64,000 nt of DNA from contig NZ_JAJNOD010000001.1 in NCBI RefSeq assembly GCF_021044885.1, positions 806,001 to 870,000 of the forward strand, read 5' to 3'. Origin of the DNA: Microbacterium nymphoidis (GTDB lineage: Bacteria > Actinomycetota > Actinomycetes > Actinomycetales > Microbacteriaceae). Below the pieces are notes generated by a model, which was not told where the DNA came from, made no database searches, and worked only from the letters and a program-made list of their open reading frames with translations. Below, piece after piece: positions 21,137 to 26,197 of this stretch. Numbering within the stretch: the first letter of the stretch is position 1; every line of letters starts with the position of its first letter. A program made the translations under genes and the position numbers.

Positions 21137-22174
21137 TCATGCGCGGTAGGTGCGCGGAAGGTCCGATGCGAGCCGAAGGACGATCTCCTCGCCGATCGTG
21201 CCCAGACGCTCCGCGAGATCGGTGGCGGAATCCGCCGGCGCCGTACCGAACAGCGTGACCACCTGTCCCGCCTCCGCGTTGTCCCAGTGCGGGATGCGCA
21301 GCGTCTCGGCCGCGATCTCCGTCACGGGGAGCCGTCCCCCCGGGGTCGCCGCGGTCAGCACCCCGGCAGCTGTCGACATGAGCCCGGTGACGTAGCCTGC
21401 ACCGATGATCGTGTCCTTGCGGCCGACCTTCTCAACCTCCGCCTGGAGCGATCCCACGATCGCCAGCCCCAGCTCGGCCTCCGACGGACCGTCGGCTGAG
21501 CGGATGCCGTAGTGGAAGGCACCGATGCGCACCATGTCATATCGGAACTCGGGGCGGGCGAAGGCGGCGGCGCTCGCCGCCAGGTGCAGCTTCTGCGGGG
21601 CGAGCCCGGCAGCACGCGCCTGAGCCACGGCAGCATCGAACACCGCCCGAGCGTCGTCGTCATCGGCATCCGAGGCTTCGCCGATGTGCGACCAGATGCC
21701 GACGACCCGTACCAGCCCGAGGGCCTCCAGCTGGGCCGCGCGATCCACGAACACGGGCCACTCCTGCGGCCGCACGCCGTTGCGGTGCAGCCCGGTGTCG
21801 ATCTTCAGATGCACATCTGCGGTCACGGCCCGGGTCTGAGCGACAGCAGCCACATCCTCCAGGAGCGCGGCGGAGCCGACCCCGATGTCCAGACGCGCCC
21901 CCAGTGCGTCAGCCACATCGTCCCGTCCCGCCAGCATCCACGCGAACACGCGCGCGTCGGGCGCCAGGGCGCGAACGGCCACACCCGTGCACACGTCCAG
22001 AGCGCCGAACCACGTGACGCCCTCGGCGACGGCGCGGCTCACGACGCTGTCGAGACCGTGCCGGTAGGCGTCGTCCTTCACCACGAGCATCGCCTCCGCC
22101 GGGGCAACGCGCTCCCGCACGGTGCGGATGTTGGCCGACAGCGCCGCCAGATCGACCACGAACTCTGCACTCAC
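21137..22174 (-). CDS. Alanine-racemase-like protein with PLP lysine but without catalytic tyrosine
   Basis: 345 residues from GTG 22174. The TIM-barrel part of fold-type III racemases is complete: PLP Lys33 and Tyr37 in LVVKDDAYRHG, Arg131 in LKIDTGLHRNGV, the WSHIGEASD His motif, and VRIGAFHYGI. In the C-terminal domain the position of the second catalytic base (Tyr265 of Geobacillus Alr, motif VSYGATY) reads TIIGAGY, i.e. Ile instead of Tyr, and the Met-Asp motif is not seen. Alone it should lack one of the two catalytic acids/bases. The GTG overlaps the stop of the upstream racemase-like gene by 4 bp, and that gene has the missing Tyr. The two probably form a heterodimer (inference). Confidence 0.88.
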   Translation of the reverse strand: MSAEFVVDLAALSANIRTVRERVAPAEAMLVVKDDAYRHGLDSVVSRAVAEGVTWFGALDVCTGVAVRALAPDARVFAWMLAGRDDVADALGARLDIGVGSAALLEDVAAVAQTRAVTADVHLKIDTGLHRNGVRPQEWPVFVDRAAQLEALGLVRVVGIWSHIGEASDADDDDARAVFDAAVAQARAAGLAPQKLHLAASAAAFARPEFRYDMVRIGAFHYGIRSADGPSEAELGLAIVGSLQAEVEKVGRKDTIIGAGYVTGLMSTAAGVLTAATPGGRLPVTEIAAETLRIPHWDNAEAGQVVTLFGTAPADSATDLAERLGTIGEEIVLRLASDLPRTYRA

Positions 22175-22845
22175 GCCACGACCTCCCGACGCGCCCGGTT
22201 GCCGATCGCCGGCAACAGCTCCTCCAGACCGAGCCCCGTGAGGGAGATCCACTCCGCCCAGGCCGGCTCTCCGCGGTCCGGGTCGCCGAGGAACACGACT
22301 TCGCCGCCCGGCGCGACATCGGACGCCCCGACGTCGACGACGCAGACGTCCATCGCCACGCGCCCCACGATCGGGCGGCGGTCACCGTTCACCGTGACCG
22401 CCAGGCGATTGCCGAGCGAGCGCACGATGCCCTGCGCATAGCCGCCGGTCACCAGCGCCACCCGGGTGTCCTCGGACGCCGTGAACGTGTAGCCGTAGGA
22501 CACGCTCTCACCCGCGCGCAACACCTTCACACCCAGGACGTCGCCGCTCAGCGTGACCGCCGGCCGGGTCTGCGGGAGGGCTCCCGCGGCGACGGCCGCC
22601 GTCACCACAGCGAAGGTGGGCGGAACCTCACCCGCGAAGGCCGAGGGCCCTGCGTCATCCACGATGCCCGCCAGCGACTGTTCCCGAGCCACGGCGGTGA
22701 TCAGCTCGGCGCCGAGTCCCCACCCGTCGTGGCGCGCGTCGGCGTACACCTCACGGGGATGACCGGAGAGGTTCGCGGCCACGGCGGAGCGGGACACGCG
22801 CAGGATGGGATGGGTGCGGCCGATGAGGTCGTGCGCGGAGGTCAT
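22171..22845 (-). CDS. Truncated alanine-racemase-like protein with catalytic tyrosine but without PLP lysine
   Basis: 224 residues, ATG at 22845. The C-terminal beta domain of Alr is well kept: Tyr117 in VSYGYTFTA (equivalent to Tyr265), GGYAQG, and Met165-Asp166 in IVGRVAMDVCVV (equivalent to the Met312-Asp313 pair). The N-terminus keeps only the first beta-alpha unit: PILRVSRSAVAANL and EVYADARHDGWG, where the PLP Lys is replaced by Tyr34, and most of the barrel is missing. So this protein cannot bind PLP in the usual way. It is coupled to the next gene (GTGA overlap). In Alr dimers the Tyr comes from the partner subunit, which makes a complementary heterodimer plausible. Confidence 0.85.
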   Translation of the reverse strand: MTSAHDLIGRTHPILRVSRSAVAANLSGHPREVYADARHDGWGLGAELITAVAREQSLAGIVDDAGPSAFAGEVPPTFAVVTAAVAAGALPQTRPAVTLSGDVLGVKVLRAGESVSYGYTFTASEDTRVALVTGGYAQGIVRSLGNRLAVTVNGDRRPIVGRVAMDVCVVDVGASDVAPGGEVVFLGDPDRGEPAWAEWISLTGLGLEELLPAIGNRARREVVA

Positions 22846-23072: not shown

Positions 23073-24104
23073 ATGGCCTCGTCTGCCTCATCCCTCCCGG
23101 TGCGCGTCAAGTACGCGGTCGATCGCGCGCTGCGCATCAACACCGGATCGCTGATCGCGCGCGCCAAGGAGACCGCCGCGCACCACCACCGTGCGGTCCC
23201 CGCCGTGGTGCTGGACATGCTGTGGTCCGCGGCTCGTCACGACGTCGGCTTCCAGGACTACGTCGACTACGACTTCGCGATCCTCAGCCGTGCCGAGCGC
23301 GCCACCTACATGACGCACCCGATCTCGAACCGCATGTCGCAGCTGCTCGACAAGCCGGAGGGGCGCGCAACGTTCCACGACAAGATCGCGTTCAACCGCG
23401 CGTTCGCACCGTACCTGGGCCGCGAGTGGCTCGTGCTGGGTGAGAACCCCGCGTCGGACACGGACGCGCTCCAGGCGTTCGCCGAGCGCCACCCCACGTT
23501 CATCGCCAAGACCCCGCAGGGCTCCGCAGGTCTCGGGGTGCACCGCTACCAGGCCGCGGAGGTGTCCGATTGGAAGGCCTTCACTGCGGAGCTCGTCGGA
23601 CGCGGTGAGCTGCTGATCGAGGAGGTCATCCTCCAGCACGAGGACATCGCAGCGTACTGCCCCGGAACCGTGAACACGACCCGCGTCACGGCGTACTTCG
23701 ACGGCACCAAGACCCACATCCTCGCAGCGGCCCAGAAGTTCGGACGCGGCGCGGTCAGTGACCAGATGTCGTTCGGCGGCTTCTACACGATGCTCGACGA
23801 CAACGGTCACGCCCGCAGCGCCGGCTACGACTCGCACGAGAACGTCCACGAACTCCACCCCGACACCCACAAACGCATCGCCGACTTCCAGCTGCCCATG
23901 TGGGATGAAGTCGTCGCGTACGTGGACCGCATCGCGCGCGTGATCCCGTCGATCCCCTACGTGGGCTGGGACATCGTGGTGACCCCGAACGGGCCTGTCG
24001 TCATCGAGGGCAACTGGGCGGCCGGCGTGTACGAGAACAAGCCGAGCGTGAGCGGCATCCGCACCGGACACCGCGAACGCTATCGCGCGGCCACAGGTAT
24101 CTGA
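23073..24104 (+). CDS. Sugar-transfer-associated ATP-grasp family protein
   Basis: 343 residues, ATG at 23073 with AAAGGAG upstream. ATP-grasp features: ATP-binding Lys and Gly-rich loop in TFIAKTPQGSAGLG, ELLIEEVILQHEDIAAY, nucleotide/metal residues in GTVNTTRVTAYFDG and VGWDIVVTPNGPVVIEGNWAAG. It matches the ATP-grasp type found in polysaccharide and cell-envelope clusters. These enzymes join a carboxylate to an amine or other nucleophile using ATP. The gene is divergent (227 bp) from the racemase-like pair; the proximity suggests a D-amino-acid ligation step, but this is inference. Followed by a bidirectional terminator. Confidence 0.85.
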   Translation: MASSASSLPVRVKYAVDRALRINTGSLIARAKETAAHHHRAVPAVVLDMLWSAARHDVGFQDYVDYDFAILSRAERATYMTHPISNRMSQLLDKPEGRATFHDKIAFNRAFAPYLGREWLVLGENPASDTDALQAFAERHPTFIAKTPQGSAGLGVHRYQAAEVSDWKAFTAELVGRGELLIEEVILQHEDIAAYCPGTVNTTRVTAYFDGTKTHILAAAQKFGRGAVSDQMSFGGFYTMLDDNGHARSAGYDSHENVHELHPDTHKRIADFQLPMWDEVVAYVDRIARVIPSIPYVGWDIVVTPNGPVVIEGNWAAGVYENKPSVSGIRTGHRERYRAATGI

Positions 24105-24161: not shown

Positions 24162-24860
24162 TCAGGCCTTGCGGATCACGCCGAGCGGCGTGGACTGGTG
24201 TCCCTGGCCCAGCGGATTGTCCTTGAGGATGCGCACGAGGCGCTGCTCCCCCGCCTTCGACAGCGTGGAGCCCAGGATGTTGCCACCCAGGTCGTTGATG
24301 TCGACCACGGCCACATCGGCCGGAGTCTTCAGCAGCGCCTTGAGGTGCGCCGCAACCTCGGCCGGACGCTCCGGTCCGAGGACCACGGCCTTGTTGTAGG
24401 GCGGGATGGTGCCACTGGTGGGCCCATCGATCGCTCGTGCCTTGTCTCCCGCGATGCGGTAGAAGTCGCCCTTGCGCCCGAACGCCTTGGTCACTGCGGC
24501 GACGGCCGCAGCGAACAGGATCTTCGGGGTGCCGCACTCGCGCAGCGCCATCTCCATGGTCTCGGGCATGCCGAGACCGATGCCGTACGGGGTGCGGGTG
24601 ACGTACTTGGAAAGGAAGTGCGCCAGCTTTCGCGGCGTGATGTCTTCCACCAGGTAGGAGCGCCCCTGCGTGATCGCGACGATCTTCTCGGTCACGAACA
24701 GCGTGTCGCCGGGCACCAGGGTGCCCTCGGTGACGTACTGCTGGATGAATGCATCCAGGTCGTCTCCCGGCATGACGACATGCGTCTTGATCGGAAGCCG
24801 CTGGAACTGCTCGCCGTCGACCTCGATGAGGAGGTTCTTGCCTTCGTTCGCCTCTGCCAT
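24162..24860 (-). CDS. Coenzyme F420-0:L-glutamate ligase domain protein (CofE/FbiB-N-like)
   Basis: 232 residues from ATG 24860. Upstream in-frame GTG/ATG codons at 24875 and 24872 overlap the sigma factor stop and are alternatives. Family features: RLPIKTHVVMPGDDL, VTEKIVAITQGRSY and TRTPYGIGLGMPETMEMALRECG, the latter near the expected metal/GTP site, plus NDLGGNILG. The domain adds gamma-glutamate to F420-0 in F420 makers, but no other F420 gene is in the window. Several actinobacteria carry a lone homologue of unknown substrate. Immediately downstream of sigA, likely co-transcribed. Confidence 0.78.
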   Translation of the reverse strand: MAEANEGKNLLIEVDGEQFQRLPIKTHVVMPGDDLDAFIQQYVTEGTLVPGDTLFVTEKIVAITQGRSYLVEDITPRKLAHFLSKYVTRTPYGIGLGMPETMEMALRECGTPKILFAAAVAAVTKAFGRKGDFYRIAGDKARAIDGPTSGTIPPYNKAVVLGPERPAEVAAHLKALLKTPADVAVVDINDLGGNILGSTLSKAGEQRLVRILKDNPLGQGHQSTPLGVIRKA

Positions 24861-24871
24861 GCTCTTTCCCA

Positions 24872-26197
<1,326 letters not shown>

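Follow-up and report, generated by a model that had tools for sequence, protein, structure and literature searches.

The gene pair in Microbacterium nymphoidis

The window analysed here is the whole 64,000-nucleotide stretch of M. nymphoidis DNA (contig NZ_JAJNOD010000001.1, positions 806,001 to 870,000). Its − strand carries two overlapping genes related to alanine racemase (Alr), the short one first and then the long one. The genes and the codons discussed below are as follows; equivalent residues are those of G. stearothermophilus Alr.

22171..22845, − strand: gene of the putative short subunit, 224 aa, ATG start; Alr C-terminal domain with the catalytic Tyr, and a small barrel remnant
21137..22174, − strand: gene of the putative long subunit, 345 aa, GTG start; full PLP barrel, of Alr2 lineage, and a C-terminal domain without the catalytic-Tyr loop
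22171..22174, − strand: GTGA stop/start overlap of short and long
22732..22734, − strand: Arg38 codon of the short, former position of the PLP Lys
22495..22497, − strand: Tyr117 codon of the short (Tyr265')
22348..22353, − strand: Met165-Asp166 codons of the short (Met312'-Asp313')
22076..22078, − strand: Lys33 codon of the long (Lys39), the PLP lysine
21418..21419, − strand: junction of the 19-residue deletion (Tyr265 loop) in the long, residues 252/253
21188..21190, − strand: Glu329 codon of the long, at the Tyr354 specificity-gate position

The long matched Ala_racemase_N (6.5e-48) and, weakly, Ala_racemase_C (9.7e-06) in Pfam, and the short matched Ala_racemase_C alone (3.9e-31). Two further full-length Alr genes were found elsewhere in the same genome, one of which adjoins tsaE and glmS. 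The other (L003) adjoins a Ddl-like ATP-grasp gene. These neighbours were named from their translations.

A preliminary description of this DNA had proposed that the two genes encode a heterodimeric enzyme of the alanine-racemase type. The strand, coordinates, lengths and GTGA overlap that it gave are correct, and our alignment showed that the long keeps Lys33, Tyr37 and Arg131 and that the short keeps Tyr117 and Met165-Asp166, as it had said. Its account of the lost residues was misaligned. The TIIGAGY motif of the long, read there as Tyr265 changed to Ile, pairs with the Tyr284 strand (LVPLGYA) and not with VSYGATY; Tyr265 is deleted rather than substituted, as a 19-residue stretch is missing between residues 252 and 253. 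In the short, the PLP Lys position is occupied by Arg38 (RHDGWG against KANAYG) and not by Tyr34. Nor are both domains otherwise intact, since the partner-facing positions in the C-terminal domain of the long (Tyr284, Met312 and Asp313) have drifted across the pairs.

Reciprocal loss of catalytic residues

Our alignment covered 74 pairs, which come from 29 Microbacteriaceae genera (those with loci examined, of 78 sampled), five named Microbacterium records (among the matches listed), one Micrococcales MAG and the window, with repeat loci per genome removed. Both genes were found at all 74 loci. Many of these pairs share descent, and locus L046, whose short looks frameshifted, is counted among them. 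The comparison set consisted of 96 full-length Alr (97 minus one row of less than 330 aa). Residues were numbered as in G. stearothermophilus Alr and placed by motif, and several of the numbers agree with those in the available part of PMC3485190.

Lys39, Tyr43, Arg136, His166, Ser204 and Arg219 are each present in 74/74 longs, and Tyr265 is missing from all 74, of which 73 have a gap there and one has Gly. The loop deletion measures 19 residues in 56 of the 74, the window included, and ranges from 14 to 24, with one row unscored. Every short, on the other side, possesses Tyr265, Arg290 and Met312 (74/74 each); position 284 is Tyr in 66 and Phe in 8, and position 313 is Asp in 68 and Asn in 6. 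The Lys site was readable in 69 shorts, where it is occupied by R (57), D (4), A (3), T (2), S (2) or G (1) and never by K, while no remnant of the site was seen in the other five, L046 among them. Both catalytic bases are thus found in one chain in 0/74 longs, which have no Tyr265, and in 0/69 readable shorts, which have no Lys. Among the full-length Alr, Lys39 and Tyr265 are both kept in 96/96.

Reciprocal loss was found in 74/74 pairs, a good number of which share descent, against 0/96 full-length Alr, and this is more than would be expected by chance. It is real and broader than first claimed for the one pair: Lys and Tyr segregate alike in the relatives, with Tyr265 never in both genes of a pair and Lys39 never in both where the position is readable. 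A start codon giving the 4-nt overlap is present in 67/74 pairs; for each pair this count takes whichever start comes closest to such an overlap, and an independent choice of start gave 18/19.

Purifying selection and predicted folds

The dN/dS values ranged from 0.13 to 0.46 for the long and from 0.12 to 0.28 for the short (22 comparisons per gene, in which several rows repeat one genome), with the exception of the frameshifted-looking short of the L046 MAG (0.69). Both genes are under purifying selection. Decay of either gene in relatives, which the preliminary description had named as evidence against a functional pair, was looked for in both genes, and dN/dS is well below 1 in all but L046.

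The AlphaFold2 model of the long had a pLDDT of 96.4 (47-row alignment), and its best PDB match by E-value was the Alr 5fag, over the full length, with a TM of 0.94. That of the short had a pLDDT of 84.1 (38-row alignment), and about 132 of its residues superpose on the Alr C-terminal domain at about 1.4 A. Both are single-chain folds.

Origin of the pair

The barrel tree placed the 53 longs that it includes in one clade (support 99), which also contains 9 full-length Alr2; Alr2 is the product of the second gene in alr1-alr2 tandems, for example in Curtobacterium (L047). Most Microbacterium rows L122-L151 were thinned from both trees. In the C-terminal-domain tree, 51/52 shorts group together with a support of only 82, near canonical Alr mainly of Microbacteriaceae and apart from Alr2; L046 is absent from this tree, one row is 14% filled, and the Alr2 rows L029, L035 and L041 were cut at the wrong motif and begin in the barrel. 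Tandems and pairs have a common gene order, with alr1 or the short first and alr2 or the long second. The pair is therefore probably a reduced alr1-alr2 tandem. A graded series exists, in which the Lys-less partners in L182, L153, L154, L204, L212 and L213 keep much of the barrel.

A single origin of the loop loss in the long, with one clade, was weakly rejected by an AU test (p 0.0365, 79 rows, with long-branch rows and near-copies omitted). Gene conversion within tandems is an alternative account.

We also considered whether the two genes are the halves of one broken gene. This was rejected, as a C-terminal domain is present in each of the two proteins and the Alr lineages with which they group in the trees are not the same.

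Two short-type genes were observed in the M. sufflavum genome G392, and several other Microbacterium genomes have 5-8 matches; paralogous pairs may exist.

The substrate gate

The alanine gate consists of Tyr354 and Tyr265', according to the available part of PMC3485190, which gives Thr at position 354 in Lyr and Ala in Bar and in which Thr391 of Lyr, at the 354 position, touches the side-chain amine of the substrate in a docked model. At this position we found Glu in 50 and Asp in 24 of the 74 longs, and Glu in 7 and Asp in 2 of the 9 full-length Alr2. The 87 other full-length Alr have Tyr (68), Trp (10), His (7), Phe (1) or a gap (one), and Glu/Asp in 0/87. The long, like the lysine and broad-specificity racemases, has a non-Tyr residue here, which in those enzymes lets in larger side chains, and the Tyr354 alanine gate is absent.

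The presence of an acidic residue in every long suggests a basic side chain on the substrate. The substrate would probably be basic, with ornithine as the likeliest candidate and diaminobutyrate or lysine in other genera. The fold named in the preliminary description stands, that of Alr, but alanine itself is probably not the substrate, the Tyr354 gate being acidic in 74/74 longs. Charged gate residues reduced alanine racemization in AlrTt, as described in the available part of PMC4517790; this fits a non-alanine substrate and is no proof of a basic one. Next to the Arg that orients PLP, where Lyr has Asn174, the window long reads HRNG (Arg131-Asn132), and the canonical Alr of the same genome has an Asn there too (SRNG).

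Complete alr1-alr2 tandems with an acidic gate in the second gene were observed at L029, L033, L035, L037, L041 and L047.

Neighbouring genes and ligase types

Two further genes of the window lie between the pair and rpoD.

23073..24104, + strand: divergent gene of the ATP-grasp type (PF14397; 343 aa), whose product is the probable partner ligase
24162..24875, − strand: F420_ligase/CofE-like gene, PF01996 (7.1e-11), between the ATP-grasp gene and rpoD

Neighbours were scored in 46 pair loci by tblastn with named proteins. The pair has gyrB nearby in 44/46 loci and rpoD in 42/46. MurT and/or GatD homologues were found beside it in 27/46 loci (26 each) and an ATP-grasp gene in 13/46, while the two kinds occurred together in 0/46; neither was found in 6/46, one of which is a 4.5-kb contig. 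The F420_ligase/CofE-like gene was seen in 17/46 loci, some of them without the ATP-grasp gene (L188 and L191).

The GatD adjoining the pair lacks the nucleophile Cys in 26/26 cases, with G in 16, A in 8, T in 1 and S in 1 (e.g. L185, L219, L045, L046 and L182). Among the 30 best Microbacteriaceae MurT loci, the canonical-type GatD of L237-L253 keep Cys and His in 17/17. The remaining 13/30, apart from or not linked to the canonical type, are without Cys, and one of the 13 is an already-known pair locus. Loss of the GatD Cys is thus not peculiar to the racemase pair. A Cys94-to-Gly change in S. aureus GatD abolishes lipid II amidation, as given in the available part of PMC6085368.

Within Microbacterium, the two ligases are exact complements: MurT_C was found in 17 of 99 genomes and a strong ATP-grasp match (E at most 4.7e-79) in the other 82, with weak matches (E 1.2e-16 or worse) in five of the 17 MurT genomes left uncounted. 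The ligase switched 7 times on a 38-row Microbacterium tree, and at least 5 of these switches are forced. Presence of the pair was scored in this genus by the short gene, which the long adjoined in every such locus opened. Short-type genes were found in 81/99 genomes, and none was seen in 18/99. A short gene is present in 16/17 MurT genomes, in 58/60 genomes whose ATP-grasp protein is at least 62% identical to that of the window, and in 7/7 with one 48-52% identical plus a second copy. It is present in 0/8 genomes where the identity is 54-58% and in 0/7 where it is 41-45%, one of these last having extra short pieces at 51-60%. In Microbacterium, therefore, the ligase subtype predicts the presence of the pair.

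In 149 Microbacteriaceae genomes, MurT_C was found in 104, strong ATP-grasp in 25, both in 5 and neither in 25. The five with both (G016, G029, G097, G107 and G116, one of whose MurT matches is under the family cut-off) have the MurT-like and ATP-grasp genes adjoining each other, and no pair was seen in them. Exclusivity of the ligases is looser outside Microbacterium.

A putative one-site heterodimer

In the Alr and Lyr homodimers each active site combines Lys39 of one chain with Tyr265' of its partner, and residue 354 sits on the Lys side of the site (available parts of PMC3485190 and PMC4517790). The long retains the helix bearing position 354. The retained parts, namely the barrel of the long and the C-terminal domain of the short, would build one site, and the lost parts belong to the other; this argues for a heterodimer with one site. 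In the mechanism we propose, long and short would pair up as an obligate Alr-fold heterodimer (PLP fold type III) that has just one active site, made up from both chains. The long would supply the barrel, Lys33 as the PLP lysine and the remaining PLP ligands, and its own C-terminal helix would supply Glu329 at the specificity gate. The short would supply the opposite catalytic base Tyr117 together with Met165-Asp166. The components of the second site would be those that were lost, the Tyr loop of the long and the barrel of the short.

From the genes, we infer a physical complex, a racemase activity, a substrate and a pathway. We consider it quite likely that the pair encodes an obligate heterodimeric racemase of the Alr fold, with one composite site and probably a basic substrate destined for the type B peptidoglycan bridge. 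The heterodimer reading of the preliminary description, with its residue details mended, has held up against both the segregation of residues and the search for decay.

The same obligate heterodimer might act on alanine, serine or another small amino acid, as a regulated or back-up source of D-Ala. Its nearest solved relatives are alanine racemases, and TIGR00492 (alanine racemase) is the top NCBIfam match of both halves, with 128 bits for the long and 94.3 bits for the short, below the cut-off of 168. But we regard this as unlikely: two full-length Alr are encoded elsewhere in the genome, all longs have an acidic residue at the Tyr354 gate, and the short-type gene, of which none was seen in 18/99 Microbacterium genomes, tracks the ligase subtype.

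Alr variants that lack Tyr265 gain retro-aldol activity. The long could act alone as a D-specific PLP enzyme, with the short regulating it or the canonical Alr, and its complete PLP site and confidently predicted fold would allow this. It is a distinctly improbable account, as what the short retains is precisely the set that works on the partner's site (Tyr265, Tyr/Phe284, Arg290 and Met312) and the 4-nt overlap is available in 67/74 pairs. Decay of a duplicated alanine racemase operon is a hardly credible reading of the pair in spite of the missing domains and the frameshifted look of the L046 MAG copy, since pairs occur in 29 genera, with gyrB nearby in 44/46 loci and rpoD in 42/46, dN/dS is 0.12-0.46 without the short of L046 and the catalytic residues are invariant; on residue conservation and dN/dS we rejected a relic or a sequencing error for Microbacteriaceae at large.

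A possible role in type B peptidoglycan

Type B peptidoglycan is cross-linked via the alpha-carboxyl of D-Glu2. It is D-Glu2 of the precursor that MurT/GatD amidates, according to the available part of PMC6085368. An acidic-gate racemase that lies beside a MurT whose GatD should make no ammonia fits the supply and ligation of a D-diamino acid. The proposed heterodimer would turn a basic amino acid into its D form for the type B cross-bridge, and the bridge amino acid would be attached by a glutaminase-less MurT/GatD-like complex or by an ATP-grasp ligase. The role of the racemase would then be the supply of D-ornithine or D-diaminobutyrate.

M. sufflavum was described with D-ornithine in the available part of PMC10757982, and in its strain SSW1-51, which is not the type strain, we found the whole pair together with another short-type gene. 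As carriers of L-lysine, the same paper names members of the M. imperiale clade, M. gubbeenense and M. enclense. Curtobacterium PhB115 has an alr1-alr2 tandem, and a short-type match was not found in it. D-diamino acids are obtainable by other routes as well, since one diaminobutyrate racemase is PLP-independent and DapF-like (available part of PMC8225329).

A wider proposal is that the gyrB-rpoD locus of Microbacteriaceae is core machinery of the type B cross-bridge. It would combine the one-site heterodimeric D-diamino-acid racemase with an adjacent ligase acting on the alpha-carboxyl of D-Glu2, which would be either a glutaminase-less MurT/GatD, with an amino acid used in place of ammonia, or else an ATP-grasp enzyme, unrelated to it, which has substituted for it several times. 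We judge the considerations for and against this to be evenly balanced. If true, it would provide candidate genes for D-diamino acid supply and for the bridge ligase of type B peptidoglycan.

Comparison with known systems

In the titles and abstract beginnings of the open-licence literature we found no assignment of these enzymes for Microbacteriaceae, and no report of a heterodimeric alanine racemase was found in that literature, which is weak evidence of novelty. If the reading of the pair is true, a bacterial amino-acid racemase has gone from a two-site homodimer to a one-site heterodimer by reciprocal loss. Partly reduced relatives are still living, and the route would be open to stepwise study.

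Alr (TIGR00492; 5fac, 1vfh and 1xfc) has the same fold, the same PLP site and the same two-base Lys/Tyr' layout across the protomer interface. However, the Alr homodimer has two sites, with both bases in each chain and usually Tyr354, whereas here there are two chains, one possible site and Glu/Asp354. Lyr and Bar/BsrV (4dza, 4dyj and 4beu) are also racemases of the Alr fold. Lyr and Bar have Tyr354 replaced and lysine as the best substrate, according to the available part of PMC3485190, but they are homodimers with Thr or Ala at position 354, where the pair has Glu/Asp.

The full-length Alr2 of the tandems (Curtobacterium L047 and others) shares the barrel clade, acidic gate and gene order of the long. 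Unlike in the pair, both genes of the alr1-alr2 tandems keep Lys39 and Tyr265, and each product could be a homodimer. The MurT/GatD lipid II amidotransferase is homologous to the gene pair found beside many of these racemases, but the GatD adjoining them is without the catalytic Cys, so that it is unlikely to release ammonia from glutamine.

Heteromers with a dead paralogue exist outside the Alr fold, as in AdoMetDC-prozyme, DHS and, further, serine palmitoyltransferase LCB1/LCB2. For AdoMetDC-prozyme of T. brucei and trypanosomatid DHS, the available parts of PMC5201418 and PMC3663545, respectively, describe a catalysis-dead paralogue that is a required partner, as we propose here. The pair would differ from such heteromers in that its partner is also trimmed to about one domain and should itself give a catalytic base.
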